64,000 bases of DNA from Pseudomonas delhiensis. Its GTDB lineage: Bacteria > Pseudomonadota > Gammaproteobacteria > Pseudomonadales > Pseudomonadaceae. Positions 48,114 to 64,000 of the stretch are shown in pieces. A program made the translations under genes and the position numbers. The DNA lies in assembly GCF_900187975.1 (NCBI RefSeq), contig NZ_FZPC01000028.1:1-64000 (forward strand), given 5' to 3'. Every line of letters starts with the position of its first letter. The first letter of the stretch is position 1. A model generated the notes under the pieces. It was not told where the DNA came from. It saw only the letters and a program-made list of their open reading frames with translations, and ran no database searches.

Positions 48114-50108
48114 TCAGGGCTCCATACGACGCTGCTGGTGGACCAGGTCGACGATGTCGCCATCCGGGCAGTAGCCGTTGACCGAATCGCGCAGCAGCAT
48201 GCGCACCTGGGCGTAGTCGCCGCGCTCCACCGCCTTCAGCAGCGAGCCCAGCACCGCCTTGAACGCATCCCAGGGCAGCATTTCCTCGTTCGCCTTCATG
48301 ATCATCGGGTGCTCGGTAGTGCCCACGTCGTCACCGATCAGCAGTTCCTCGTAGAGCTTCTCGCCCGGGCGCAGGCCACTGAACTCGATGGCGATGTCGC
48401 CATGGGGCGTGCTCTCCGAACGCACGCTGAGCCCCGACAGGTGGATCATGCGCTGGGCCAGCTCGAGGATCTTCACCGGCTGGCCCATGTCCAGCACGAA
48501 GACATCGCCGCCGCGCCCCATGGAGCCCGCCTGGATCACCAGTTGCGCGGCCTCGGGTATGGTCATGAAGTAGCGGGTGATCGCCGGATGGGTGACGGTC
48601 ACCGGGCCGCCGCGCTTGATCTGTTCGCGGAACAGCGGAATGACCGAGCCGGACGAACCCAGGACGTTGCCGAAGCGCACCATGGTGAAACGGGTCTTGT
48701 TCACATGGTGCACGCCGGCCTTGTCGCCGAAGAGCACCGGCGCCTGCTCCTGGCTGAGCGCCTGCAGGATCATCTCGGCCAGGCGCTTGGTGCCGCCCAT
48801 GACATTGGTCGGACGCACCGCCTTGTCGGTGGAGATCAGCACGAAGTTCTGCACCCCGGCCTGGATCGAGGCCTGGGCCGCCTGCAACGTGCCCAGCACG
48901 TTGTTGAGCACGCCCTCGGAAATGTTGTGCTCGACGATCGGCACGTGCTTGTAGGCGGCCGCATGGTAGACGGTGTTGATCTTCCAGCTGCCCAGCACTT
49001 CCAGCAGGCGCTCGGCGCTACGCACCGAGCCCAGGATGGGCACCAGCTGCACCGGCAGGGACTCGCGGCGGATGCGCCGCTCCAGTTCCTGGTGGATACG
49101 GTAGAGGTTGAACTCGCAGTGCTCGAACAGCACCATCACCGTCGGGCCGCAGGTCAGGATCTGCCGGCACAATTCCGAGCCGATGGAACCGCCCGCCCCG
49201 GTGACCATCACAGCCTGGCCGCGGATGCAGTGTTCCAGCAGCTCCTTGCGCGGCGCCACCGGGTCGCGCCCCAGCAGGTCGGCGATATCCACTTCCTGGA
49301 TGTCGTCCACCCTCACCCGGCCGTTGGCCAGGTCGATGATGCCGGGCACGCTGCGCACGTGCAGCGGATAGGGTTCCAGCAACCCGAGGATCTCGCGGCG
49401 GCGCGCCCGCGAGGCCGAGGGAATCGCCAGGAGGATCTCCTGGGCGCCGGTCTCCTCGATCATCTGCTGGATATGCTTGGGCTTGAATACCCGCAGGCCG
49501 GCGATCACCCGGTTGGCGATCTCGTCGTCGTCGTCGATGAAGGCCACCGGGCGCATCGCCCGCCCCAGGCGCAGGGCGGCCACAAGCTGGTTCCCCGCTG
49601 TACCCGCGCCGTAGACCGCGACCTTGGTCAGGCCATCGTCCTGCTTGAAGAAGGGCATGGCCTGGACCGCGCTGTACCAGTCGCCCATGAAGTACTGGCG
49701 CATGGCCAGGCGCAGGCCGCCGACCATCAGCAGGCTCAGCCACCAGTAGTTGAGCACCAGGGAACGCGGCACCGCCTCGACGACCGAGCGGTTCCAGTAG
49801 ACCACCAGCGAAAGCACCAGGGCCGAGATGGTCACCGCCTTCCAGATGGCGATCAGCGCATCGTTGCCCAGGTAGCGCATGACCGCCCGGTACATGCCGA
49901 AGCGGATGAACAGCGGTATCGCGATCAGGGGCGCGGCGATGAACAGCCAGGCATGCACGCGGAAGGGGTAGGTCAGGTCGTCCGCACCCAGGCGCACCAC
50001 GAAAGAAAGCCACAGGGCCAGCCACACCAGGAACACGTCCGTGACCACCTGCAGCATTCGCTTGTAACGTCGGGGCAACCTCAGCAGGCGCTCTCGCAGC
50101 ATATCCAT
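48114..50108 (-). CDS. wbpM: UDP-sugar 4,6-dehydratase, WbpM/FlaA1-like polysaccharide biosynthesis protein
   Basis: Inner-membrane enzyme making the first 6-deoxy-4-keto sugar (from UDP-GlcNAc) for O-antigen. The product is 664 residues. About four N-terminal membrane helices come first, then a first Rossmann part (GAGTAGNQL near 167) and the catalytic long-SDR domain (VTGAGGSIGSELC near 298). As in WbpM, the usual Tyr of Tyr-x3-Lys is replaced by Met (MGGTK near 436). ATG at 50108 follows GGGAAGG. It is last in a minus-strand LPS unit with the wbpL-like gene. Confidence 0.94.
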   Translation of the reverse strand: MDMLRERLLRLPRRYKRMLQVVTDVFLVWLALWLSFVVRLGADDLTYPFRVHAWLFIAAPLIAIPLFIRFGMYRAVMRYLGNDALIAIWKAVTISALVLSLVVYWNRSVVEAVPRSLVLNYWWLSLLMVGGLRLAMRQYFMGDWYSAVQAMPFFKQDDGLTKVAVYGAGTAGNQLVAALRLGRAMRPVAFIDDDDEIANRVIAGLRVFKPKHIQQMIEETGAQEILLAIPSASRARRREILGLLEPYPLHVRSVPGIIDLANGRVRVDDIQEVDIADLLGRDPVAPRKELLEHCIRGQAVMVTGAGGSIGSELCRQILTCGPTVMVLFEHCEFNLYRIHQELERRIRRESLPVQLVPILGSVRSAERLLEVLGSWKINTVYHAAAYKHVPIVEHNISEGVLNNVLGTLQAAQASIQAGVQNFVLISTDKAVRPTNVMGGTKRLAEMILQALSQEQAPVLFGDKAGVHHVNKTRFTMVRFGNVLGSSGSVIPLFREQIKRGGPVTVTHPAITRYFMTIPEAAQLVIQAGSMGRGGDVFVLDMGQPVKILELAQRMIHLSGLSVRSESTPHGDIAIEFSGLRPGEKLYEELLIGDDVGTTEHPMIMKANEEMLPWDAFKAVLGSLLKAVERGDYAQVRMLLRDSVNGYCPDGDIVDLVHQQRRMEP

Positions 50109-50169
50109 TCGTCCTTCCCAGTCCGGGAGCGCAGTCTCCCGTTACATTGACCACCATTTCCCATGGAGT

Positions 50170-51192
50170 TCACTTCGGTTGGCCGTCTTCAGGCCCACCG
50201 GCACCCAGCACTGCCACGACCAGCACCAATGGAGCATAGGCAAGAATCAGTCCGGCCACGCCGTCGATCCAGCCCAACGCCACGAAAACGGCGATCGGCG
50301 ACAGCCATATCAGATTGATCGCAGCCACCGACAGACTGATGGCGCGATGCTGGCCCAGACGCCGCGAAGCCCGCTGGTAGGCATGGCTGCGGTGCGCTTC
50401 ATGCACCCGCTCGCCACGCAGCAAGCGACGCGCCAGGGTCCAGGTGGCGTCGACCACGAAGGCGCCCAACAGGATCAGCCAAGACCAGAACAGCTGCGGA
50501 GCCTGCCAGGCCGCCTGCAGGGACAACCCTCCCAGGACGATGCCGAGGAAGCCGCTGCCGGCGTCGCCCATGAAGATTCGCGCCGGCGGGTAGTTCCAGG
50601 CCAGGAACCCCGCGGTGGCCGCGGCGAGCAGCAGCGGTAGCCAGGCGGCCGAGCCCACCCCGGCCAGCCAGCAGCAGAGCGCCGCACCGACGCAGACGGT
50701 GATCGCCTCCAGGCTGGCGATGCCGTCGATGCCGTCCATGAAGTTGTAGAGGTTCAGCAGCCACACCAGGTAGAGCAGCGCCAGCAGCGAACCGAACAGG
50801 CCCAGGTCCCAATGGCTGCCGGCGAACGGCAGGGCCGGCACGCCACCCAGCATGTAGAGCAGGAACCCCGCCCCCAGGAAGTGGCCGAGCAGGCGCCAGC
50901 GGGCCGGGACGTGGCGATGGTCGTCGACGAAGCCCACCAGGGCGATCCAGCCGCCCGACAGCAGCAGGGCAAGCATGCCGCGCGTATCGGTCAGGCCCAT
51001 CCCCCAGGACAGCAGCAGCACCAGAAGGAAGCTCAGGACTATCGCCACCCCACCGCCCCTGGGCGTCGGGACACTGTGGGAGCTGCGCTCGTTGGGCACG
51101 TCCATCACGCTGCGCGCGAGGGCGTAGTGGCGAACCCCGGCGGTACCGGCCCAGGCCAGCAGCAGGGCGAGAAACGACAGCAGGACGATCAT
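50170..51192 (-). CDS. wbpL: Undecaprenyl-phosphate glycosyltransferase, WbpL/MraY family
   Basis: Integral membrane sugar-phosphate transferase (340 residues, about ten helices) that starts O-antigen on undecaprenyl phosphate. MraY/WecA-family motifs are present: SSHSVPTPRGGGVAI near 37-51, NLYNFMDGIDGIA (near 143-155), and GDAGSGFLG (near 205). The cytoplasmic loop HEAHRSHAYQR matches the HxxxH(R) region. ATG at 51192 overlaps the epimerase stop (ATGA). WbpL of P. aeruginosa initiates both O-antigen types. Confidence 0.92.
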   Translation of the reverse strand: MIVLLSFLALLLAWAGTAGVRHYALARSVMDVPNERSSHSVPTPRGGGVAIVLSFLLVLLLSWGMGLTDTRGMLALLLSGGWIALVGFVDDHRHVPARWRLLGHFLGAGFLLYMLGGVPALPFAGSHWDLGLFGSLLALLYLVWLLNLYNFMDGIDGIASLEAITVCVGAALCCWLAGVGSAAWLPLLLAAATAGFLAWNYPPARIFMGDAGSGFLGIVLGGLSLQAAWQAPQLFWSWLILLGAFVVDATWTLARRLLRGERVHEAHRSHAYQRASRRLGQHRAISLSVAAINLIWLSPIAVFVALGWIDGVAGLILAYAPLVLVVAVLGAGGPEDGQPK

Positions 51193-52148
51193 CGCCGGGA
51201 CTCCCGGTACCAGCGAGCCGTCGCCGCCAGCGCCTGGTCGACGCCCACCGGCGGGCGCCAGCCCAGCAACTCGCGGGTCTTGCCGATATCCACCTGCAAC
51301 GAACCCAGCACGCGCTGCGCCTGGGCTCCCCGTCCGAACAACGCGGCCAGCCCCTGCAGCAAGGCGACCGGCACCGGCAGCAGCCGCGAACGTACGCCCA
51401 GCGCCGCGGCCAGGCGGCGGCACAGCTCGGCGCTGGAAAGGTCCTGGTCGTCGCTGACCAGGAAGACCTGGTTGGCGGCACGCTCGTGCCCCAGGCAGAC
51501 CCGCAGCAGGTCGACCAGGTTGTCCCTGGCCACCAGGCTCCGCCGGTTGCGCACCCGCGCGAACGGCAAGGGCAATTGCCGCTGCACCGCACGCATCAGG
51601 CTGGCGAAGTTGGCCCCCACACCCGGGCCATAGATCAGCGGCGGGCGGATGACCACCCATTCCATTGCACAGTCTTCGGCCAGGCGCGACAGCGCCCGCT
51701 CCGCTTCCAGCTTCGACTGGCCGTAGGGGTCGGCCGGCGCCGGCGCGTCCTCGGCACGGAACGGCCGGCCGGGCGGCGTCGATTCGCCATTGACCTTGAC
51801 CGAGCTGATGAAGATGAAGCGCCGCACCCCTGCCGCGGCGGCCTGGCGTGCCAGGTTGAGGGTGCCCTCGACGTTGACCGCGCGGAACTCGGCCAGGGGA
51901 TCGTCCGCGGTTTCGCACATGACATGCACCCGGGCCGCGGCATGGACCACGACGTCCACGCCGGCCAGTGCACCGCTCCAGTCCTGGGTGGCGCTCAGGC
52001 CATCGATGGAGTGGACCTCCACGCCGGGGAACTCGCCGGGCAGGCGGGAACGCACCGCCACCGCCAGGCGCAACTCCGGTATCGCGGCAAAGGCTTCGAG
52101 AACGCCACGCCCGACAAAACCGGTGGCACCGGTCAGAAGTACTTTCAA
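51189..52148 (-). CDS. NAD-dependent epimerase/dehydratase for UDP-sugar
   Basis: Extended-SDR sugar-nucleotide enzyme, 319 residues. GATGFVGRG at 7-15 binds NAD, and YGQSK near 140 is the Tyr-x3-Lys pair. It resembles WbpK/WbpV/Gne-type epimerases or reductases that supply 6-deoxy-HexNAc precursors such as FucNAc or QuiNAc. No ATG fits; the best start is a TTG at 52148 five bases after AGGAG, giving MKVLLTGATG. Coupled to the wbpL-like gene by a 4-bp overlap. The exact sugar is not determinable. Confidence 0.85.
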   Translation of the reverse strand: MKVLLTGATGFVGRGVLEAFAAIPELRLAVAVRSRLPGEFPGVEVHSIDGLSATQDWSGALAGVDVVVHAAARVHVMCETADDPLAEFRAVNVEGTLNLARQAAAAGVRRFIFISSVKVNGESTPPGRPFRAEDAPAPADPYGQSKLEAERALSRLAEDCAMEWVVIRPPLIYGPGVGANFASLMRAVQRQLPLPFARVRNRRSLVARDNLVDLLRVCLGHERAANQVFLVSDDQDLSSAELCRRLAAALGVRSRLLPVPVALLQGLAALFGRGAQAQRVLGSLQVDIGKTRELLGWRPPVGVDQALAATARWYRESRR

Positions 52149-52205
52149 CACCACTCCTAGAGATTCAAGGCGCCGGGGCACCGTCCATGATTTCGGGCAC
52201 TGGCA

Positions 52206-53360
52206 TCACTGCTGGGGAGCAGCGATCGGCCTGAGCGTATTCCACCCGTGGCAGCCCGGGCATTGCCAGTGCAACTCGCGCCCGGCGAAACCGCAATTGC
52301 CGCAGCGATAGTGCGGCATCGATCGATACAGGCCGAGGATGATCGGCTGCATGTGGGTGAACAGCTCCTGGTCCGCCCTTCCGCCGCCCAGCGTACCGAG
52401 CATGTCCAGCAACCCTCGCCAGGAAGGCTGCTGCTGGACCTTGGCCAGCAACCGGCCGCGCCAGCCCTGCCCGTCCGCGTCGAGCTGGGCCAGGATCGCC
52501 AGCAGCGCCGGCGACGCATCCGGCGCCTCGGCCAGACGGCGCAGGCAGGCGAGGATCGCCGGCTCGGCGCAACACTCGCGGCGCCGCAGCATGGGCAACA
52601 GCTCGCCGAGAAAACCGGCATCGGCCGCGCAGAGCTCGGTGATGGAAGCGTCGGCAGCCTGGAAGTTGCGCTGCCACAGCTCGCAATCCAGGCGCATCAG
52701 CAAGGCGCGCACGCACTGGGGATCGACCCGCCGGGCCTCCTTGAGCAGCTCGCGGGCGCTGTCGCGGTCACCCCCACGGATGCGCTCCTGGGCCTGCTCG
52801 CAATAATAGTTGGCCAGCACCGTCTTCAACTGGGGCCGCCGCCCCACCAGGCGCGCTGCAAGCTCCACTGCACGCGCCCAGTCCTTCTCGCGTTCGGCGA
52901 TGCGACGCAGTTCGTCCAGCGCCTCCAGCGAGGCGGCCTGGCCGTCGCGCCGCATCAGCTCGTCCAGCAACTGCTCGGCGCTGCCAAGCAACCCGCCGGC
53001 GATGTAGTCACGGGCGAGTTCGAGGCTGATCTGCGCGGACAGCTCGGTGTTGGCGGACGCCTTGCCCAGCAATTCCTGGTGGATCTGGATCGCCTTCTCG
53101 ATATCCCCACGGCGGCGGAACAGGTTGCCGACATGAACGTGGCTTTCGAGCGTCTCCTCGTTCAGCGAAAGCCCCTGGGAAAGGCGCTCCAGCGCGTCGT
53201 CGGAATGCCGGTCGAGCAGGTTGTGCATGTTGCGCACCCGTTCGCGCAACGCCTCGTCAGCAGAAGCCGGCCGAGACCCAGGGCGCAACGAGCGGCGCCC
53301 CAGCCACCAACCGACGGCCAGGGCCAGGACGAACAGCAGCATCGCTACAACGCTGGACAT
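52206..53360 (-). CDS. lapB: Lipopolysaccharide assembly protein LapB
   Basis: Inner-membrane adaptor that tunes LPS synthesis by promoting FtsH-dependent breakdown of LpxC. The product is 384 residues. One N-terminal helix (about 3-20) precedes about nine TPR-like repeats (about 60-340) and a rubredoxin-like zinc site of Cys353-x2-Cys356 ... Cys367-x2-Cys370. All four cysteines are present. Follows lapA by 6 bp. Confidence 0.94.
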   Translation of the reverse strand: MSSVVAMLLFVLALAVGWWLGRRSLRPGSRPASADEALRERVRNMHNLLDRHSDDALERLSQGLSLNEETLESHVHVGNLFRRRGDIEKAIQIHQELLGKASANTELSAQISLELARDYIAGGLLGSAEQLLDELMRRDGQAASLEALDELRRIAEREKDWARAVELAARLVGRRPQLKTVLANYYCEQAQERIRGGDRDSARELLKEARRVDPQCVRALLMRLDCELWQRNFQAADASITELCAADAGFLGELLPMLRRRECCAEPAILACLRRLAEAPDASPALLAILAQLDADGQGWRGRLLAKVQQQPSWRGLLDMLGTLGGGRADQELFTHMQPIILGLYRSMPHYRCGNCGFAGRELHWQCPGCHGWNTLRPIAAPQQ

Positions 53361-53366
53361 CCCGGA

Positions 53367-53669
53367 TCACTGGGTCTTCAGCGACTGGTCGCGCAGGGCC
53401 TGGTTTTCCTTGCGGAAGCGCGATACCTCGGAACGCAGCCCCGAGAGATGCAGGCGCGTGCGCGCCCGGAACGGAATGCTCAGCAGCAGGCCGATGACGC
53501 CACCCAGGACGAAGGACAGGGTGATGAAGACCACCAGCGGCCACTCAGGCGTCTGCCAGCCGAGGAAGGCCAGCTGGACCTTCTGCAGGTTCTCCAGGAC
53601 GAAGACGACGATCACTGCGCATAGCAGGATGGCAGCCAGGAAGGCCAGAAAGCGTTTGAGCCGAAGCAT
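53367..53669 (-). CDS. lapA: LapA family membrane protein
   Basis: Small inner-membrane protein of 100 residues with two hydrophobic helices (about 7-28 and 43-65) and a C-terminal coiled segment (LRSEVSRFRKENQALRDQ). Conserved partner gene of lapB. ATG at 53669 follows GAGGATT. Lies between ihfB and lapB in the conserved rpsA-ihfB-lapA-lapB order. Confidence 0.92.
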   Translation of the reverse strand: MLRLKRFLAFLAAILLCAVIVVFVLENLQKVQLAFLGWQTPEWPLVVFITLSFVLGGVIGLLLSIPFRARTRLHLSGLRSEVSRFRKENQALRDQSLKTQ

Positions 53670-54117: not shown

Positions 54118-55800
54118 TTAGCCCTGGTTCTCCATTTGCGCACGAATCAGATCACCAATGGTGGTCGGACCGGTGCTTTCTACTTCCTGCTTGCTACGCA
54201 GCTCTTTCATCGCATCCTTCTCGTCATCGACGTCCTTGGACTTGATGGAGAGGCTGATGACGCGGCTCTTGCGGTCGATGCTGATGATCTTGGCTTCGAC
54301 TTCTTCGCCTTCCTTCAGCACGTTGCGGGCGTCTTCGACGCGGTCGCGGCTGATTTCGGAAGCCTTCAGAACGCCTTCGATCTCGTCGCCCAGGCTGATG
54401 ACGGCGCCTTTGGCGTCAACTTCCTTGACGATGCCGCGAACGATGCTGCCCTTCTCGTGCTGGCCGGCGTAGCTGGAGAACGGATCGTCTTCCAGTTGCT
54501 TGATGCCCAGGGAGATGCGCTCGCGCTCCGGATCGACGGAGAGGATGACGGTTTCCAGCTCGTCGCCCTTCTTGAAGCGACGCACGGCTTCTTCACCGGC
54601 TTCGTTCCAGGAGATGTCGGACAGGTGAACCAGGCCGTCGATGCCGCCTTCCAGGCCGATGAAGATACCGAAGTCGGTGATCGACTTGATGGTGCCGGAG
54701 ATCTTGTCGCCCTTGTTGAAGCGACCGGAGAAATCTTCCCACGGGTTGGACTTGCACTGCTTGATGCCCAGGGAGATACGACGACGCTCTTCGTCGATGT
54801 CCAGAACCTGAACTTCCACTTCGTCGCCAACCTGAACGACTTTCGACGGGTGGATGTTCTTGTTGGTCCAGTCCATTTCGGAGACGTGTACCAGGCCTTC
54901 CACGCCCTCTTCCAGCTCGGCGAAGCAGCCGTAGTCGGTGAGGTTGGTGACGCGGGCCATGACGCGGGTGCCTTCCGGGTAACGAGCCTTGATGGCAACC
55001 CACGGGTCTTCGCCCAGTTGCTTCAGGCCCAGGGATACGCGGTTGCGCTCGCGGTCGAACTTCAGAACCTTGACATCGATCTCGTCGCCGACGTTGACGA
55101 TTTCCGACGGGTGCTTGATGCGCTTCCAGGCCATGTCGGTGATGTGCAGCAGGCCGTCTACGCCGCCCAGGTCCACGAATGCGCCGTAGTCGGTGAGGTT
55201 CTTGACGATACCCTTGACTTGCTGGCCTTCCTGCAGGGATTCCAGCAGGGCTTCGCGCTCGGCGCTGTTCTCGGCTTCCAGGACGCTACGACGGGAAACG
55301 ACAACGTTGTTGCGCTTCTGGTCCAGCTTGATGACCTTGAACTCGAGCTCTTTGCCTTCCAGGTGAGTGGTGTCACGCACCGGACGGACATCGACCAGGG
55401 AACCCGGCAGGAACGCGCGGATGCCGCTGACGTCGACGGTGAAGCCGCCCTTGACCTTGCCGTTGATTACGCCCTTGACCACTTCATCAGCGTTGAAGGC
55501 AGCTTCCAGAACCAGCCAGGATTCGGCACGCTTGGCTTTCTCGCGGGACAGCTTGGTTTCACCGAAGCCATCTTCAACCGCGTCCAGCGCAACGTGGACT
55601 TCGTCACCCACCTTGATGGTCAGCTCGCCCTGTTCGTTGTAGAACTGCTCGACCGGGATGACGCCCTCGGACTTCAGGCCGGCATGCACGGTGACCCAGT
55701 CACCGTCGATGTCGACCACGATGCCGGTGATGATGGCACCCGGCTGCATGTCGAGGGATTTCAGACTTTCTTCAAAGAGTTCTGCGAAGCTTTCGCTCAT
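54118..55800 (-). CDS. rpsA: 30S ribosomal protein S1
   Basis: Large RNA-binding ribosomal protein that recruits mRNA to the 30S subunit. The product is 560 residues with six S1 (OB-fold) repeats visible by recurring [10 protein letters not shown] / [10 protein letters not shown] / [10 protein letters not shown] blocks. The ATG at 55800 gives [13 protein letters not shown], the expected start; the frame stays open 15 codons further but lacks a better site. Its codon choice is noticeably restricted compared with neighbours, as expected for a highly expressed gene. Normally cmk precedes rpsA; here a sulfotransferase gene does. Confidence 0.98.
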
Positions 55801-57272: not shown

Positions 57273-58586
57273 TCATTTCCTACCTGACTGACAACGATCC
57301 CATCGAGCCGGTCCATCTCCACGTTCGACTACGACGTCTTGCGCATGGAGAAGCCGGGCAGCGCCGGGCGCCTGGGGCACGACCAGAGCGCCAAGCCAAT
57401 CCCGGGTCGCGAAGTAGTTGCTCACGAACGCAGCGCATTGACTCTCATCTAGGAGTCCGGACAACCGATAGACGGTGGCGGCGCGCTCGACCAACCAGCC
57501 GGGTGGCTCAGCGCAATCCTCGATGAGCAAGTGCAGCGTCGCCTTTCCGATGAGAACCTCCAGTTCCGGTCGAGAGCATTGCTTGATATCGCAGCCTCGT
57601 TGCAGGCAAACCACAAAAATCCGTACCGGCGGACGCCGATACTGGCCCGGTCGTGACAAATTGAGCAGCGGTTCATCCACCAGCCGGCGGCGATATCCAT
57701 CGGCCAGCGATTTTCGCCAAGCCGAGTTGGCGCAAAACTCCCGATGCGCCAGGCGCAACTCTCGGCAGGCCTGGCGCGGGCGACGGTTGGCATGCCCCAG
57801 TCGCGACCTGGGGTGCCTCCGATAGAACATCAGCGCCTCGCCTATCACCCTGCCCCGTACTCCCAAGCTCGCCAGGCGGATCCAGAAATCCCAGTCCTCG
57901 TACAAGGCACTCCGGACCTCGGAAAAACCGCCCACAGCCGCCCAGGCAGAACGCGAGAACACAGCCGAGACCCCAAGGTGATTGACGTGAGCCAGCAACA
58001 CCGGATCGAGGTCTCGGGTCTTGACCAACCGCCGCTCCCTTCCGAACAGCTGCAGCCAGCTATGGGCCAGCCCCAGGCCTGCATCCGCCTCCAGCATGAC
58101 CACACACTTCTCCAGGTAAGACGGCGCTAGAAGGTCATCGGCGTCCAGGCAACAGACATACCGCCCTCGAGCCTTAGCGATGCCCGCATTGCGTGCAGCC
58201 CCGGGACCGGCATTGGCTTGCCGGAGAACGGTCAATGAGGTGAGCCGCTCGAGCAACACGAGCAGACGACGAGTGGCGGGATCATCGGAACCATCGTCTA
58301 CCAGGATGACCTCGAAGTCCTGCAATGTCTGCTCGCGCAAACTGCGCAGCGCCTGCAACAGATAATGGCCATAGTTGAAGCAGGGAATGACCACACTGAC
58401 CAAAGGCAATTCAGGGGCCCAGGGTTCAGCCATAGCAGGCTCGCCAGGCAGACTTCCGCATGGGCGCGAGCCCAGCATCCAATGGAGCGCAGCTCGGCCC
58501 GGATTCCCCGCCATACGCCGTAATGCGGGCCGGCACAGGAACCAGAACCGCTCTGCTCCCGAACGAATCGCCTCTGCCATCGACAT
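57273..58586 (-). CDS. Glycosyltransferase family 2
   Basis: Predicted inverting GT-A glycosyltransferase of about 437 residues for O-chain synthesis. The GT2 core is SVVIPCFNYGHYLLQAL (64-80), VDDGSDD (96-102), NAGPGAARNAG (125-135) and the metal-binding DAD at 148-150. An EDWDFWIRL block follows near 230 as the acceptor/base region. The C-terminal 150 residues do not match anything I recognise. The ATG at 58586 is chosen; a GTG three codons earlier (58595) directly after the upstream stop is possible. Donor and acceptor sugars are unknown. Confidence 0.85.
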   Translation of the reverse strand: MSMAEAIRSGAERFWFLCRPALRRMAGNPGRAALHWMLGSRPCGSLPGEPAMAEPWAPELPLVSVVIPCFNYGHYLLQALRSLREQTLQDFEVILVDDGSDDPATRRLLVLLERLTSLTVLRQANAGPGAARNAGIAKARGRYVCCLDADDLLAPSYLEKCVVMLEADAGLGLAHSWLQLFGRERRLVKTRDLDPVLLAHVNHLGVSAVFSRSAWAAVGGFSEVRSALYEDWDFWIRLASLGVRGRVIGEALMFYRRHPRSRLGHANRRPRQACRELRLAHREFCANSAWRKSLADGYRRRLVDEPLLNLSRPGQYRRPPVRIFVVCLQRGCDIKQCSRPELEVLIGKATLHLLIEDCAEPPGWLVERAATVYRLSGLLDESQCAAFVSNYFATRDWLGALVVPQAPGAARLLHAQDVVVERGDGPARWDRCQSGRK

Positions 58587-58595
58587 GAATGGCAC

Positions 58596-60047
58596 TCACT
58601 CGACCGGCTGCGGTGCAGCACATGTCGGCAAGTATCCCGGCACGGCGGCAACCTCTCGCGTAAAAGTGGCCCAGACATGCCGCCCGCGCATTCGGGCCTG
58701 GGCATTGGTCACTTTCCTTTCGGCCCGCTGAGGATCCTCCAGCACTTGCCTGATCATCTCGACAAAGGCAAGCGGCCCTGCCGCAGCATCGAGGGGATAG
58801 CCGCTGTCCTCCTCCACCAGCTCCGCTATACCGCCCACCGTCGGCGCGACTATGGGAAGGCCTGCGGCAGTAGCCTCGAGCAGGACGTTCGGCAAACCGT
58901 CGTAGGCGGAGGTATAAAGGAAAACGCCATAATCACCCGCCTGGGCGATTGCCGCGAAACTGTCAAAGCGGCCAACCAGGGAAACGTTCGGCAATGCCTT
59001 CAGGCGCTGCAGCACATTTGTGTCATAGGCGGGGTCGGCTTCACCATGGACATCGAAGCCCACCTCCGGCATGGCCCGGGCGATTTCATAAAGCAGCTCG
59101 GGGCGCTTCTGAGCGGCCAACCGTCCCGCCCATAGCACCTTCCTACCTACTCCAGGCGCGCTGACGATCTCGCCGATGAAGGGGAAATACAAGGCATGCA
59201 GACGCTCCCGCGGAAGGCCGTCACGCCGCTGGATGAGCTCGAGAAAGTGCTGGTTGTCGGTGAAAACACCAGCGAGGTGCATCCATGCCTTCGGCAGGAA
59301 CTCTGTGGCATAGCCACAACGCACCCCGTTGCGGTCGACATCGTCGCAGTAGACGCTGGCAAACAGGCGCTTGCCACTGCTCACCAGCGGTTTGCCGAAT
59401 CGCTCGAACAATTGCCAACCCAGCAACGAATTGATCAGGTGCAGCGTACTGGCCGAACTCTGCAGCAGCAGCCGCAGCAACACCAGTTCACGATCCTCGT
59501 CGCCGGCATGTCGCGTCAGGCGTCCGAACTCGACCACCCTGGCCGCTGCCGGCAGGCGATTGATCCAAGGTGAGAGGACATCCCGGGTGATCACCACCGT
59601 CACCCGCAACCCCTGCTCCACACAAAGGTGAACATGGTGCAAAGTGCCCAGATCGGCCCCACCTCGCATCATGTGGGGAATGAGGAAAATCACTTGAGGC
59701 TGGCTGTCGACGAAATCAGCCAACAATTCCCGGTAGAGCGCCGCTGCATGAGGATCCTCGCCTGGCTGCCAGGAACGGAAGCGACCGAGCAGCTCATCGC
59801 TGGGATATAGCGCCGGCTCGATATGCGACAGTTCGCGTAACTCCTCGACTATCCAATGCGGCAGCGCTGCCGCTGCAGCGCCCTGAATCGGCGCAGCCTC
59901 CGGAAAGTAGCGATACTTGAGACGGCGGCAGGACACCACGAACTGCTGCAGCTGTCGCTCATTCAGGCAGCGTCGCAGAAGCGCGAACATCCATCTGTAG
60001 GCGTGCCAGGCAAGCCATGCGAGGAGTTTCTTCAGACGTACGGACAT
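58596..60047 (-). CDS. Glycosyltransferase family 4-like protein
   Basis: Predicted GT-B retaining glycosyltransferase of 483 residues. The N-terminal half has IFLIPHMMRGGADLGTLHH near 140-160. The C-terminal half has KVLWAGRLAAQKRPELL and the donor-binding block YDGLPNVLLEATAAGLPIVA, where the family's E-x7-E becomes D-x7-E. Basic, partly amphipathic N-terminus (about 1-30) may attach it to the membrane. ATG at 60047 with AAGAGG ahead. It is 9 bp from each neighbour in the operon. Confidence 0.84.
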   Translation of the reverse strand: MSVRLKKLLAWLAWHAYRWMFALLRRCLNERQLQQFVVSCRRLKYRYFPEAAPIQGAAAAALPHWIVEELRELSHIEPALYPSDELLGRFRSWQPGEDPHAAALYRELLADFVDSQPQVIFLIPHMMRGGADLGTLHHVHLCVEQGLRVTVVITRDVLSPWINRLPAAARVVEFGRLTRHAGDEDRELVLLRLLLQSSASTLHLINSLLGWQLFERFGKPLVSSGKRLFASVYCDDVDRNGVRCGYATEFLPKAWMHLAGVFTDNQHFLELIQRRDGLPRERLHALYFPFIGEIVSAPGVGRKVLWAGRLAAQKRPELLYEIARAMPEVGFDVHGEADPAYDTNVLQRLKALPNVSLVGRFDSFAAIAQAGDYGVFLYTSAYDGLPNVLLEATAAGLPIVAPTVGGIAELVEEDSGYPLDAAAGPLAFVEMIRQVLEDPQRAERKVTNAQARMRGRHVWATFTREVAAVPGYLPTCAAPQPVE

Positions 60048-60056
60048 CAAAACCTC

Positions 60057-60785
60057 TTACCTCCAGAATCCATCGGCGAAGAATGGCCCCGGGCGCACGA
60101 CGACCTGCTGTCGCAAGCCGGCGCTCTGCCGGGAACCGGCAGGCTTGCGCCGATAGAACAACGCCGTCTGCGGCGCTGTGGTATGGCGCGCTCCCGCGGC
60201 CAAGGTCGCGAGGCTCCAGTCCCAGTCCTCGTAGCCGAAGCCGGTCCTGGCCATGTTCGCCTCCCGATAGGGGCAACGCAGGAACAGCTCCCGAGACGCG
60301 AACACCGTCGAGGCCCACAGATGGTGTTTGAAACAGGTTTCAGCCCCCCCCTTCCCGGTTAACTGATCGCTCTGCCGGGAAAACTCCCAGGACTCGCCGA
60401 AAGTCAGCAGATAATCGGTATGCACGACCACCTCGCCAGACTGCGCAGCCAGGGCGCTCGATGCCTCGGTAATCCAGTTCGCCGAACAATAGTCGTCGCC
60501 ATCGAGAATGCCGATCAGTTCGCCGTCCGCCTCGCTGACTCCCAGGTTGCGCGCCAGGCCAGGATCCCCCAGGGATGCCTCTATGACTCGATCCGTCGGA
60601 CGCAGTACCGGATGCTCGCGGACCATTCGCAGCGTGAACGGATCGGCATGGTCCAGTACTGCCAACAGTTGCACTTCGTGCCCGAATAGCTCGGCATGGC
60701 TACGCATGCGTTCGAAGCCGAACAGCGACCACTGTCCCAGTGTGCGCTCGCGATGGAAGGTCATAACCACGCAGGACCTGGACAT
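60057..60785 (-). CDS. Small glycosyltransferase family 2 (paralogue A)
   Basis: GT2-like enzyme of 242 residues: VVMTFHRERTLGQWS at the N-terminus, LARNLGVSEADGELIGILDGDD (metal-binding DGDD 95-98), and EDWDWSLATLA near 198. It is clearly paralogous to the upstream gene product: FERMRSHAELFGHEVQLLAV and CQRMRRWTAFHGLSVQLVVV align. The ATG at 60785 lies 4 bp after the paralogue's stop. The long open frame further upstream is an overlap with that gene. Specificity is unknown. Confidence 0.82.
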   Translation of the reverse strand: MSRSCVVMTFHRERTLGQWSLFGFERMRSHAELFGHEVQLLAVLDHADPFTLRMVREHPVLRPTDRVIEASLGDPGLARNLGVSEADGELIGILDGDDYCSANWITEASSALAAQSGEVVVHTDYLLTFGESWEFSRQSDQLTGKGGAETCFKHHLWASTVFASRELFLRCPYREANMARTGFGYEDWDWSLATLAAGARHTTAPQTALFYRRKPAGSRQSAGLRQQVVVRPGPFFADGFWR

Positions 60786-60789
60786 GGTC

Positions 60790-61581
60790 TCAACCAACCT
60801 CCGACAAGTGACGAGAAAAGAAGACACCCGGCCTGGGTACGCCGGCTGTCCCTTTACGCTGGACGGGGAGCCCCTCGGGCGCTCCGCGACAAAAGGCGGC
60901 AGTACCGCTAGCCAGGGTGTGAGCGCGACCGGAAGCAATGACCTCCAGCCCCCAGTGCCAGTCAGGAAAAGCGAAGCCCGTCTGCTCGGTGAACACAGGC
61001 TGATAGGGCACGGCCTCGAATACCTCGCGACGGGCAAAGACCATGGCGCCCCATGGATAACTCTTGAAGCAGCTCGCCGAGCTGTAAGCATCCACCAATT
61101 GATCGATGCAACGGGCATAGGAGAAGGCCTGGTCGTGATGCAGGAGATACTCGGGGTGCACCACCACCCGACCTCCACAACGCCGTACGACTCTCTGCGC
61201 CTCTACCAGCCAATTGGCGCTGCAGTAGCTGTCGCCATCGAAGATACCGAGACACTCGCCCTCCGCCAGGCCTATGCCGGCATTGCGGGCCAGGGACAGG
61301 TCACCGTGCTCGACCTCCAGCAGTCGGTCCGTCGGCTGCAGAGCCGGATGCTCATTGACAATTCGCCGGGTATCGCAGTCAGGACGGTCGAGTACCACCA
61401 CCAACTGGACCGACAGGCCATGGAAAGCAGTCCATCGACGCATGCGCTGACAGGCCCATAGACTCCATTGGGCCCGTATGCCTTCGCTGCCGAATACGCC
61501 CACAAGGCTGATCACCGGCGGCATGGCGTCCATCTCGTGCCCTTTTATTTCCCCCATATCGGTACGACCGTCAAAGTACAT
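60790..61581 (-). CDS. Small glycosyltransferase family 2 (paralogue B)
   Basis: GT2-like enzyme of 263 residues with LARNAGIGLAEGECLGIFDGDS (DGD at 115-117, followed by Ser instead of the Asp in paralogue A) and PDWHWGLEVIA in place of the usual EDWDW. The first 25 or so residues are extra relative to paralogue A. ATG at 61581 overlaps the stop of the upstream fusion gene by 11 bp and follows GGGAG; later ATGs are possible. A tandem duplicate with changed catalytic-site neighbours, so substrate may differ. Confidence 0.8.
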   Translation of the reverse strand: MYFDGRTDMGEIKGHEMDAMPPVISLVGVFGSEGIRAQWSLWACQRMRRWTAFHGLSVQLVVVLDRPDCDTRRIVNEHPALQPTDRLLEVEHGDLSLARNAGIGLAEGECLGIFDGDSYCSANWLVEAQRVVRRCGGRVVVHPEYLLHHDQAFSYARCIDQLVDAYSSASCFKSYPWGAMVFARREVFEAVPYQPVFTEQTGFAFPDWHWGLEVIASGRAHTLASGTAAFCRGAPEGLPVQRKGTAGVPRPGVFFSRHLSEVG

Positions 61582-63289
61582 ATCCCAGACTCCCGGCAAC
61601 GTCACTCACCACGGCGGCGACCAGCTCACGCTCATGCTCGTCCATCTCGTTACCAAGGCAGGACAGTGGGGCCTGATCCGGCAGAGAAGCGCTCCCCAGC
61701 AAGCGATCGAGCATGCCGGAAGGCTCGCTGACCAGATCCTCGTATCGCATCCAGCGCAGATGCTGCTCCATTTCCAGCAATTGGCAGGCGAGGTAGCGCC
61801 ACCAGAGCGCCCGGCGCACAGGCAGGCAATCGCATGCCACGACTTCCCGCAGCATCTTGCGCTGCCAGCCGCTCAGGCCGGGATCGTCCGGATGGCCGAC
61901 TGGCTGTGCCTGCACCGCCGCCGTACGCAGGTGTTCGAAGGTCCGCTTCCAGGAAGACAGACTGTCGTAGGGGTGGCGAACAAGCGCGATGCAGGTGGCG
62001 TCGGGCATAACCCGATGCAACTCCGGGAGACGCGACAGGTACGCCAAGGTGTTCTTGGTCCCCAGGGTGAAAGACCTGCTCTGGAGTTGCGCCCGATAAG
62101 GCAGTCGGTGGTCGAACTCGCGGGCGGTATCGTCCACCAGACGCCCCTCCACGTGCTTGTTCGGCACAGGCAACCCCGCCAGCAGGTCACGACGCAGTTC
62201 GCCATACAGCCGCGGAATTCCCCACGGAGTGGCACCGCTCGCCAGTGCCGGAAACACCTCGGCGGGCTCATTGATGATCACGGTGTCCCGACGTTCCGAC
62301 AGCAGCCGACACAGATGGCTGGTACCGCTACGTGGCAGGCCGGTAATCAGCAGATCACGCCCAGCATCCTCCAGGCACGGGCTGACACCAGAACCAGCGA
62401 ACCAGGCGGGTGAATAGGCCTGCACATCCACGGATTGCCGGAGCACCTCGGCCAGTTCGGGGAAACGTTGCTGGAGCCCCTGCATGTCGCCCAGCAACTC
62501 AGGTTCACGCGCCAGCACCGGAAGGTCGTGATAGTGGCAGAAGAAAGGCCCCCTCCCCGACTTGCCCAATGGTTTCAGGTGCAATGGAAAGTTGTAGCGC
62601 TCATCCAGTGAACGTATCCGCTTCTGCAATTGCACCAGGGCAAGCGGCAGTGCCAACTGGTCCAGCCAGGGCCATTTGTGCTCAAGCCCCGGCTCTTCGA
62701 CGAGGCACTTGGCCACCCTTAACCAGGATGCGGCGAATTGCCCGGCATCGCGCACCCAGATGAAGCCGGCGTTGAAATACCCGGGCATGACCTCCTGATC
62801 ATGGCTGGCCAGTACTCGCATCTGCGGAAGATCGAGCCCCAGCACCCCGTACAGACGCCCCCAGTAGTTGGCGTCGGTGGGTACCAGAGCCATATCCGCA
62901 GGCTTCAGCGCCGCTTCGGCCTGACGAAGCGCATCGAAATCCGGCGCGTGCAGACAGTACATGTCCGTATCGAGAAACAAGGTGTGCTCATACCCCTCCC
63001 CCAGGGCCAGAGCGGCGAACTTATTGCCGATGGGGTACGCCGTACCGAAGGGGTTCTCGATCTCCCGAATAGGAATGGCGAGGCGGTCGTACAGGTTGTG
63101 CGAAGCTTCGCTGAGCGCGCCCCAGGACGACGCGGGAGTGGCCAGGGCGGCCAGGATGGGGACCTTTTCTCCAAGCCTTGCTCTGAGAGAGGTCGCCAGC
63201 AACGCTGCCTTGTACTCGAGCGCACCGCCATGGGTAACGAATACCACGCAGAAGCCGGGAGCGACTCGATCAGGAAGTGAATGGGTCAT
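61571..63289 (-). CDS. Glycosyltransferase-sulfotransferase fusion protein
   Basis: 572-residue two-domain protein. The N-terminal part (about 10-290) looks like a GT-A nucleotide-sugar transferase: FCVVFVTHGG at the start, FLDTDMYC with DTD at 107-109, and PGYFNAGFIWV near 169-179. The C-terminal part (about 310-572) is a sulfotransferase: LLITGLPRSGTSHLCRLL with the PAPS loop (317-324), and LVRHPYDSLSSWKR (3'-phosphate loop, 437-449). No membrane helix. ATG at 63289 overlaps the Wzt stop (ATGA). The natural reading is an enzyme that adds a sugar and a sulfate to the same glycan, inferred from domain content only. Confidence 0.82.
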   Translation of the reverse strand: MTHSLPDRVAPGFCVVFVTHGGALEYKAALLATSLRARLGEKVPILAALATPASSWGALSEASHNLYDRLAIPIREIENPFGTAYPIGNKFAALALGEGYEHTLFLDTDMYCLHAPDFDALRQAEAALKPADMALVPTDANYWGRLYGVLGLDLPQMRVLASHDQEVMPGYFNAGFIWVRDAGQFAASWLRVAKCLVEEPGLEHKWPWLDQLALPLALVQLQKRIRSLDERYNFPLHLKPLGKSGRGPFFCHYHDLPVLAREPELLGDMQGLQQRFPELAEVLRQSVDVQAYSPAWFAGSGVSPCLEDAGRDLLITGLPRSGTSHLCRLLSERRDTVIINEPAEVFPALASGATPWGIPRLYGELRRDLLAGLPVPNKHVEGRLVDDTAREFDHRLPYRAQLQSRSFTLGTKNTLAYLSRLPELHRVMPDATCIALVRHPYDSLSSWKRTFEHLRTAAVQAQPVGHPDDPGLSGWQRKMLREVVACDCLPVRRALWWRYLACQLLEMEQHLRWMRYEDLVSEPSGMLDRLLGSASLPDQAPLSCLGNEMDEHERELVAAVVSDVAGSLGYVL

Positions 63290-64000
63290 GGTGCGTGCAG
63301 CAACTCGAAGGAGCCATGCAGGTTGACCACGGCATCGAAACGCTTGATGGGATTGTTGATTCGGAAAGTCGCTGCGTTCACCTGCTTGTCCAGCAGTTCG
63401 CAGAGTTCATCCGTCAACGCGTCATCCAGGCGTACCGTCAGGGCATAGTCGCCTGCCTGCAGATCGCCAGCGAAGCTGATGCGTACATGCAGAAGTCCAT
63501 CGTCCCCCGTCGGCAACTCGATGCCCTGATGCGAATTGTTGAATGCGTAAAGGTTGTATCCCCGCAGATCACGAAGAACCAAGGTGATCCTCGGCCTCGA
63601 TACAGGCTGGAATAGCCTGGCCACCACCTCGACCACTATCCGTTCACCGCTATCGAAAGATTCACGCCACTCTCCGGCGGTTCCCAGACGCAATTGCTGA
63701 ATCCGCCCCTTGGCGTTGCCAAACGCCAAACCTCCATTACCAAGCGCAAGGTCGGTACCGCGTTCACCCACACGGTCTACAGCAGCACCCGCCTGGCTAT
63801 CGCGCTGGTAGAGTTCGCAAGCCGTCTCGCAATCGCCGTCGAATGCAACCTGACCATCCCTAAGGTAGATAGCCCGGCTGCAATAGCCTTTGATCAACTG
63901 CGCATCATGGGAGACCAGCAAGATGGTCACGCCCCTGGCCAACAACTCGTCCAGCCTGCTCAAGCATTTGAACTGGAAGGCGGCGTCGCCAACCGCAAGG
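63286..64000 (-). CDS. wzt: O-antigen ABC transporter ATP-binding protein (Wzt), partial
   Basis: The gene runs off the right edge; the last 238 codons are present. The visible part begins with LAVGDAAFQFKC, the end of Walker B/D-loop of Wzt-type ATPases, followed by the H-loop TILLVSHD. After the nucleotide-binding domain comes a C-terminal beta-sandwich (about the last 150 residues, LRDLRGYNLYAFNN ... RFDAVVNLHGSFEL) as in Wzt proteins that recognise the finished O-chain. Walker A and signature lie outside the window, and so presumably does wzm. It shows export by the ABC-transporter route. Confidence 0.9.
   Translation of the reverse strand, partial: LAVGDAAFQFKCLSRLDELLARGVTILLVSHDAQLIKGYCSRAIYLRDGQVAFDGDCETACELYQRDSQAGAAVDRVGERGTDLALGNGGLAFGNAKGRIQQLRLGTAGEWRESFDSGERIVVEVVARLFQPVSRPRITLVLRDLRGYNLYAFNNSHQGIELPTGDDGLLHVRISFAGDLQAGDYALTVRLDDALTDELCELLDKQVNAATFRINNPIKRFDAVVNLHGSFELLHAP

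Follow-up and report, generated by a model that had tools for sequence, protein, structure and literature searches.

A predicted glycosyltransferase-sulfotransferase fusion in an S-layer-like locus of Pseudomonas delhiensis and its possible role in building a sulfated surface glycan

In this study, we have analyzed a 64,000-nucleotide stretch of DNA from Pseudomonas delhiensis (the window, which is part of contig C64 of a 6.7-Mb genome) and have found that an open reading frame at positions 61571..63289 of its minus strand encodes a 572-aa protein (P0001) in which two enzyme domains appear to be joined. The evidence supports the reading of this protein as a fusion of an N-terminal GT8-like glycosyltransferase domain and a C-terminal sulfotransferase domain of the type that uses 3'-phosphoadenosine-5'-phosphosulfate (PAPS), with the motifs of both predicted domains conserved. 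The gene lies directly after wzt in a locus that, by analogy, looks like a surface (S-) layer locus, with wzm, type II secretion genes, a gene for a secreted protein, and wzt. Our favored interpretation, which we hold to be somewhat probable, is that the fusion builds a sulfated glycan that is exported by an ATP-binding cassette (ABC) transporter and is needed by an S-layer. The two putative activities, the likely acceptor, the S-layer that a protein of ca. 600 aa may form, and its presumed anchoring by a sulfated glycan are all read from sequence; together they suggest that some Pseudomonas strains hold a protein coat on the cell via a sulfated surface sugar chain.

RESULTS

The fusion gene runs for 572 codons from ATG to TGA on the minus strand without an internal stop, and the plus strand of 61571-63289 is broken up by stop codons. 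Its ATG shares four bases (ATGA) with the stop codon of wzt. The initial annotation had claimed a single intact frame at this position without naming a strand, and the minus strand bears out that claim; the motifs that it had placed at residues 107-109 (DTD), 317-324 (GLPRSGTS), and 438-443 (RHPYDS) are all found there, and the domain pair that it had proposed to seek across genomes is present at full length in 12 distinct genomes, the window's included. Because full-length relatives recur in other genomes, the frame is more than a chance opening. Searches of the PDB with the whole fusion gave only a chance match to a toxin for the single sequence (E = 0.67) and only chance or marginal matches for an eight-row alignment.

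The C-terminal half (residues 306-572; 61571..62374, minus strand) passes the gathering cut-off of Sulfotransfer_3 (PF13469), which is 27 bits, with 62.8 bits for the whole protein and 66.1 bits (E = 6.9e-18) for this half alone, and all 11 of the aligned C halves match the family at E <= 0.1. Residues G317, P319-R320-S321-G322-T323-S324, N340-E341, K412, R438, and S446 are invariant in the 12 fusions. We take residues 317-324 (~62318-62341, minus strand) to be the 5' phosphosulfate loop and R438...S446 (~61952-61978, minus strand) to be the 3' phosphate loop; with both PAPS loops conserved and the Pfam score well over its threshold, this half is a clear Sulfotransfer_3 domain. The best PDB matches of a C-half profile were protein-tyrosine sulfotransferases (E = 2.4e-4 and weaker). 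TPST1/2 align with the C half at the PRSGT of the 5' loop and at a later Glu; the C half differs from these enzymes in that it is bacterial and fused to a glycosyltransferase-like domain, and its acceptor is expected to be a glycan. In rhizobia and mycobacteria, glycans are sulfated from PAPS by the single-domain enzymes NoeE, NodH, Stf0, and LpsS, of which NoeE was also seen as a subthreshold match and Stf0 likewise in the search with the C half.

Sequence and PDB searches of the N-terminal half (residues 1-290; 62420..63289, minus strand) were unconvincing: Pfam gave GT8 (Glyco_transf_8, PF01501) at E = 0.12, the sequence P0008 scored 12.4 bits and so missed the gathering cut-off of 24.3 bits, and a PDB search with the N half alone gave no match up to E = 10. 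Profile comparison against GT8 and a set of controls was therefore used. With a comparison profile made of Escherichia coli WaaJ and WaaO and three GT8 proteins from one other genome, hhalign matched the N half at P = 7.1e-7 (probability 91.9), and a rerun with 20 N-domain sequences gave P = 2e-6. The same loci supplied five control profiles, for which P was 0.022, 0.13, 0.2, 0.31, and 0.91; since two of them are GT2 families, the match is not one to glycosyltransferases in general. The DxD, NAG/NSG, DQ, and HY motifs of GT8 are all present in order and align with those of WaaJ and WaaO, FLD(S/T)D with YLDAD, YFNAG with YFNSG, DQ with DQ, and HYH with HY. They lie in the window protein at residues 107-109 (DxD; ~62963-62971, minus strand), 171-175 (YFNAG), 210-211 (DQ), and 252-254 (HYH), and they are invariant in all 12 fusions except that the central position of DxD is T or S and that NAG has S in place of A once.

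The N half thus shares the GT8 motifs with WaaJ and WaaO and differs from them in a Pfam score below the cut-off. The domain had been annotated as GT-A-like; the profile comparison and the motifs favor a GT8-like domain, but its score lies under the Pfam GT8 threshold, and we therefore speak of a GT8-like domain, for which a GT-A fold is indirectly suggested by the profile, without assigning it to GT8. It would represent a GT8-like family or subfamily, separate from GT8 and lying under the Pfam and NCBIfam cut-offs, whose members occur alone or joined to other predicted catalytic domains. The domain was matched in 30 of 398 phylum genomes, comprising two fusions of this genus, one genome of the same order, one of the same class, and 26 genomes in a single family (f223) of another class, where it occurs without the sulfotransferase half. 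A copy is also carried on an Aliiroseovarius plasmid, from which we conclude that f223 is probably alphaproteobacterial. At L062:1483-3525, in another class, the GT8-like domain is joined to a GT2-type domain in a protein of 680 aa, so the domain has had different fusion partners.

A split version of the fusion, with the N domain and the sulfotransferase as neighboring genes, was looked for with the C-half profile, which had no match in any of 14 N-domain loci (L057 and 13 others taken with 1.5 kb of flanking sequence). One split-like pair of a predicted GT8-like and a predicted sulfotransferase gene is nevertheless present in one of these genomes, G1043 (L095:9844-11568), in which a sulfotransferase gene of a different type (Sulfotransfer_3, 28.4 bits versus 27) begins 219 bases past a stand-alone N-domain gene. 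Genome G1173 has a cluster that holds several sulfotransferase-like genes (L094:2987-10877); in it, a weak GT8-like frame (PF01501 E = 0.0019, under the cut-off), which gave no match to the N-half profile, begins 3 bases beyond a stand-alone C-half homolog.

Full-length fusions were found in 7 of 25 genus genomes (the window's included), in 8 of 398 family genomes (the same seven and G088), in 3 of 369 class genomes (those of the window, G429, and G573), and in 4 of 322 order genomes (those of the window, G022, G1400, and G1317); these searches overlap, and the distinct genomes number 12, the window's included. The fusion therefore also exists outside the Pseudomonadaceae. The class search also gave nine genomes that matched in the C half only; in the order search, two further genomes matched in the C half alone and one in the N half alone. 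Identity to the window protein ranges from 33 to 83% among the other eleven fusions; the nearest relative found is that of P. citronellolis LMG 18378 (83%), which was also the sole match of a single-protein search of genome contigs. Ratios of nonsynonymous to synonymous substitution rates (dN/dS) against the P. citronellolis copy were 0.154 for residues 1-290 and 0.111 for residues 306-572, and both halves are under purifying selection. Plasmid records held no fusion (E up to 1e-8) and no homolog of the secreted protein of the locus (E up to 1e-3), and viral contigs yielded just three look-alikes of the C half, at 23-26% identity.

In the direction of transcription, the genes of the window genome run hisC, tyrA-aroA, cmk (the names that we presume for the frames ahead of wzm), wzm, gspE, gspF, further gsp genes, gspD, the secreted-protein gene (SLP, P0010), galE, a GT4-type gene (GT4a), wzt, the fusion gene, GT2c, GT2b, GT4b, GT2a, P0002, and rpsA. 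The wzt gene (63286..64000, minus strand) is cut by the end of the window; the whole gene (G000:C64:63286-64530) encodes 414 aa with an ABC_tran domain (5.2e-20) and a C-terminal carbohydrate-binding domain, Wzt_C (7e-15). The order SLP, GT4a, Wzt, fusion, GT2b, GT4b, GT2a, and sulfotransferase-coil protein (P0002) is kept in all eight Pseudomonadaceae genomes, with galE in five, GT2c in five, and an extra glycosyltransferase gene in some. In all eight, wzm adjoins gspE, six times at this locus and twice (G014 and G088) elsewhere with gsp genes, so that wzm, the type II secretion system genes, the gene for the secreted surface protein, and wzt share one locus in six of the eight. Most gsp genes of G014 and G088 also lie elsewhere with wzm, and SLP, wzt, and the fusion gene stay together.

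Of the 25 genus genomes, the seven that carry the SLP gene are precisely the seven that carry the fusion; a Fisher test would give P = 2e-6, which, given shared ancestry, overstates the association. The SLP gene lies 0.8 to 3.6 kb upstream of the fusion gene in 10 of the 12 genomes, which represent three families, and in all nine genomes with wzt beside the SLP gene a sulfotransferase-domain gene directly follows wzt. The fusion is thus linked to the SLP gene and the secretion genes, and not just to wzt. The initial annotation had placed the fusion in an O-antigen operon. This label covers part of the context, but the main one of wzm, type II secretion, secreted protein, and wzt had been missed; because the linkage includes the SLP and type II secretion genes, we have set the plain O-antigen label aside.

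The SLP gene (L008:6802-8610 = G000:C64:66802-68610, minus strand) encodes a 602-aa secreted-type protein with homologs of ~540 to 620 aa, depending on the start codon, which are 63-89% identical in seven relatives and ~30% identical in two further families. By eye, its N terminus is signal-peptide-like; four cysteines are conserved, and the pI values (5 of 10 measured) are 4.2 to 5.2. SLP had no match in Pfam, NCBIfam, or the PDB, and two distant homologs had none in Pfam. By analogy, it is best read as an S-layer protein, and it is a candidate for a new family. A DsbA-like gene directly follows the SLP homolog in two genomes (L092:12105-12755 in G1400 and L093:11257-11892 in G1317). In G429, the last ~120 residues of a 1,525-aa leucine-rich-repeat protein (L052:5771-10348) resemble the C-terminal domain of SLP (32% identity, E = 2.5e-8), and the two proteins perhaps have a surface or secretion domain in common.

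Two of the fusions outside the Pseudomonadaceae lie near genes for sulfate activation. The CysD, CysN, and CysC proteins make PAPS, and CysQ, a PAP phosphatase, clears the by-product PAP. The order in G1400 is gspD, SLP homolog (~30% identical), DsbA-like gene, wzt, fusion gene, four dTDP-rhamnose-type genes (RmlD, dTDP_sugar_isom, NTP_transferase, and epimerase families), adenosine 5'-phosphosulfate (APS) kinase gene, and a gene for a 1,191-aa protein. The APS kinase (L092:5058-5708; PF01583 E = 1.7e-69), encoded in the same gene run, is 52% identical to E. coli CysC. The 1,191-aa protein has sulfotransferase, GT2, and GT4-type domains, its sulfotransferase part being below the Pfam cut-off and matching the P0002 profile at 2.7e-72.

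The order in G1317 is gspD, SLP homolog, DsbA-like gene, fusion gene, a gene for a Sulfotransfer_4 protein, gspE, gspF, and more gsp-type genes, followed by a transporter gene on the opposite strand (partial Na_sulph_symp match), genes for CysD, CysNC, and CysQ homologs, and four dTDP-rhamnose-like frames. The cys and transporter genes (L101:6427-10071 and L093:1272-3044) thus stand between the secretion and fusion genes and those of the dTDP-rhamnose type, with the cys genes ~8.5 kb downstream of the fusion gene; the proteins are 69% (CysD), 48% to CysN and 57% to CysC (CysNC), and 42% (CysQ) identical to those of E. coli. Since G1400 has an APS kinase gene in the run and G1317 has a CysD/CysNC/CysQ set near the locus, a supply of PAPS for the predicted sulfotransferase is plausible. 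Two APS kinase loci occur elsewhere in the window's own genome.

A second sulfotransferase-like protein, P0002 (56030..57322, minus strand, with the true start probably inside this frame), has a PF13469 match of 31.6 bits versus 27, a coiled-coil-like C-terminal segment, and an SRSWRxTxPLR tail, and it has a relative in all eight Pseudomonadaceae genomes. The segment is free of proline for 103 aa, and for 71 to 215 aa across the seven homologs measured (L011, L012, L013, L015, L016, L017, and L092). The PDB matches to this region were weak (E = 0.05 to 0.9), with many coiled-coil proteins among them. The P0002-type gene of G022 contains a 105-bp tandem repeat (3.7 copies, 91% match; L016:4308-4696), the unit of which corresponds to 35 residues, or five heptads, so that the repeat would lengthen the segment in register. 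By analogy, P0002 looks like a chain-length ruler in which a sulfotransferase replaces the methyltransferase or kinase.

The remaining genes of the run, all on the minus strand, encode predicted glycosyltransferases. GT2c (60790..61530) is of the GT2 type, with PF00535 at 23.1 bits, just short of 23.3, and has a relative at the same position in four of the other seven Pseudomonadaceae genomes; GT2b (60057..60779) is of the same type, with 26.4 bits versus 23.3, and the start codon of neither is fixed. GT4b (58596..60050), a group 1 (GT4-type) enzyme (PF13692 E = 2.3e-15), and GT2a (57273..58595), a GT2 enzyme (PF00535 E = 4.3e-29), are, like GT2b, present in all eight genomes. The frame at 54118..55800 (minus strand, start approximate), which we take to be rpsA, is the next codirectional gene and marks the downstream edge of the run; rpsA stands at that end in seven of the eight genomes and was not seen there in G088. 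The stretch from the end of rpsA to a ComEA-like frame (48114-53669, minus strand) holds LapA/LapB-like frames, an epimerase gene, and Glycos_transf_4 and Polysacc_synt_2 genes, presumably WbpL-like and WbpM-like, respectively. No wzx or wzy gene was apparent by eye in 48114-53669, and, given this, the ABC locus may be the main route for O-polysaccharide.

DISCUSSION

In the interpretation that we favor, the fusion would be a bifunctional enzyme of the cytoplasm. On the cytoplasmic side, its GT8-like domain would extend or decorate a lipid-linked surface glycan with a sugar taken from a nucleotide-sugar donor, and its sulfotransferase domain would transfer sulfate from PAPS to the same glycan, probably to the newly added sugar or to one beside it. 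The joining of both in one polypeptide may, as the initial annotation had proposed, fix where the sulfate goes. Wzm and Wzt would then export the sulfated glycan, and the S-layer protein would assemble on sulfated lipopolysaccharide (LPS). For this last step, the acidity of SLP makes it simplest to assume a bridge of divalent cations. To our knowledge, the molecular basis of LPS recognition by Gram-negative S-layers is poorly defined.

The gene plan of the locus, rather than any comparison of S-layer protein sequences, is reminiscent of the A-layer (wbsalmo) locus of Aeromonas salmonicida. As described in the available part of that report (PMC4483657), the A. salmonicida locus has wzm, type II secretion genes, vapA, wzt, an open reading frame with a sulfotransferase domain (ORF19), and sugar genes, and it shares with our locus the presence of wzm, a type II secretion system, and an S-layer gene, the separation of wzt from wzm, and the position of the sulfotransferase frame directly after wzt. 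It differs in that its sulfotransferase frame encodes 216 aa, with no glycosyltransferase domain named in the accessible table, and in that the sugar genes are unlike ours (PMC4483657). A related arrangement is described for A. hydrophila AH-1, and the word sulfotransferase is absent from the portion of that paper available to us (PMC4413209).

S-layer proteins of the NpdA type are encoded beside gsp clusters in many beta- and gammaproteobacteria (PMC10765051). Since P. mendocina is listed there as having an npdA ortholog, a Pseudomonas with an S-layer gene is in itself nothing new. Slr4 likewise adjoins type II genes (PMC7821379), and LPS-dependent self-assembly has been reported for Delftia NpdA (PMC3110197), again in the accessible parts of these reports. 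Like SLP, the NpdA proteins are exported, range from 52 kDa (mature, Paracidovorax) to ~61 kDa (Delftia), have no conserved domains, and are encoded beside a gsp cluster (PMC10765051, PMC3110197, in part); the likening of P0010 to NpdA is one of description and gene context. Neither glycosyltransferase nor sulfotransferase occurs as a word in the available text of the NpdA paper (PMC10765051).

Several observations weigh against the favored interpretation. On the enzymatic side, Pfam matches of GT8 at E <= 1 were obtained for only 3 of 10 N-half members, the best (E = 0.0022) being below the cut-off. As for PAPS, gsp genes and the opposite-strand transporter gene intervene between the fusion and the cys genes of G1317, which count as neighbors of the fusion rather than as an established operon with it, and APS kinases occur in 11 of 14 control genomes, so that the copies elsewhere in the window genome say little. 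Because SLP has no family match, its identity as an S-layer protein rests on context and analogy, and a search of 369 class genomes with the SLP profile found only the window's genome and a weak C-terminal piece in G429; G573, which was probably among the genomes searched, gave no match. The acidity of SLP makes direct charge attraction to sulfate unlikely, so that a divalent-cation bridge must be assumed. No wzt was seen in the 29 kb visible around the G1317 fusion, and in G429 and G573 the visible DNA near the fusion holds neither an SLP gene nor wzt; it covers 5.8 kb upstream and 0.3 kb downstream in G429 but 0.5 kb on the upstream side and 31 kb on the downstream side in G573. Lastly, the accessible portion of the A. 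salmonicida A-layer text mentions no sulfate (PMC4483657).

One alternative, which we regard as unlikely, is that the fusion caps the chain: a terminal sulfated sugar would stop growth and mark the chain for export, the mark being recognized by the carbohydrate-binding domain of Wzt, with the second sulfotransferase, P0002, and its coiled-coil-like tail acting as a length ruler or as an alternative cap enzyme. Methyl, methylphosphate, or Kdo caps occur in known ABC systems. That the window's Wzt carries a Wzt_C domain and that its gene overlaps the fusion gene by 4 bases would fit such a role, as would the position of wzt directly ahead of the fusion gene in 9 of the 10 SLP-linked genomes. In P0002 itself, an N-terminal catalytic domain is followed by a stretch that lacks proline (71 to 215 aa long in the seven homologs measured), and the available parts of two papers describe WbdD and its relatives as terminators with coiled-coil rulers (PMC11231755, PMC3482155). 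P0002 is like WbdD and WbbB (PMC11231755, PMC3482155) in its layout, a modifying domain ahead of a long segment free of proline, and in belonging to an ABC export locus; it differs from them in carrying a sulfotransferase instead of a methyltransferase or kinase, and it is a neighbor of the fusion, not the fusion. The fusion has no apparent long coiled-coil-like segment (no coil predictor was run), and P0002 is the better terminator candidate; the G1317 fusion, with no wzt in the 29 kb seen, also speaks against a cap that Wzt reads.

Less likely still, in our judgment, is that the fusion is an ordinary decorating enzyme of O-polysaccharide whose tie to the secretion system and secreted protein is one of shared position, with no function. 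There is precedent in the available accounts of Aeromonas, where the S-layer genes are an insertion into an O-antigen cluster and deletion of vapA left the LPS profile unchanged (PMC4483657, PMC4413209), and the fusions of G429 and G573 occur with no SLP gene in view. However, SLP and the fusion are found together in 10 of 12 genomes from three families, G014 and G088 keep SLP, wzt, and the fusion together while wzm and most gsp genes are elsewhere, and the G1317 fusion gene lies inside a run of gsp genes.

It is improbable that the substrate of the enzyme is the secreted surface protein itself, to which it would add sugar and sulfate ahead of export. The arrangement in G1317, with the fusion gene between the SLP and DsbA-like genes and gspE and with no wzt in view, could be read in this way; however, the sulfo- and sugar donors are cytoplasmic and the N terminus of the protein looks, by eye, like a signal peptide, and in all eight Pseudomonadaceae genomes the fusion gene is paired with wzt and several glycosyltransferase genes. 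We give very little credence to the idea that one half is noncatalytic and just binds glycan or recruits the other half, since all 12 fusions retain the key motif residues of each half and dN/dS is low in both.

Returning to the favored role of the fusion in a sulfated glycan needed by an S-layer, a fuller model can be envisioned, which we offer tentatively and consider possible rather than probable. It would be a sulfated LPS anchor for a Gram-negative S-layer, in which the fusion writes the sulfated sugar, P0002 sets or caps chain length on a coiled-coil ruler, and an S-layer protein of an uncharacterized family, brought out by a dedicated type II system, recognizes the sulfated glycan. Both halves of the fusion belong to general kinds that are already known; what is new is their combination and its setting in an S-layer-type locus. 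Among the open-access papers listed, judged by title, abstract, or selected passages, we found no account of such a fusion in Pseudomonas, of a sulfated S-layer anchor in any Gram-negative bacterium, or of an S-layer in the P. citronellolis group.

In conclusion, this work points to a GT8-like family that lies below the Pfam and NCBIfam cut-offs, and the conserved enzyme pair, near which two relatives carry genes for sulfate activation, predicts a sulfated anchor. If the fuller model is correct, an S-layer would be present in the P. citronellolis group, and sulfate would be a new code for export or docking.

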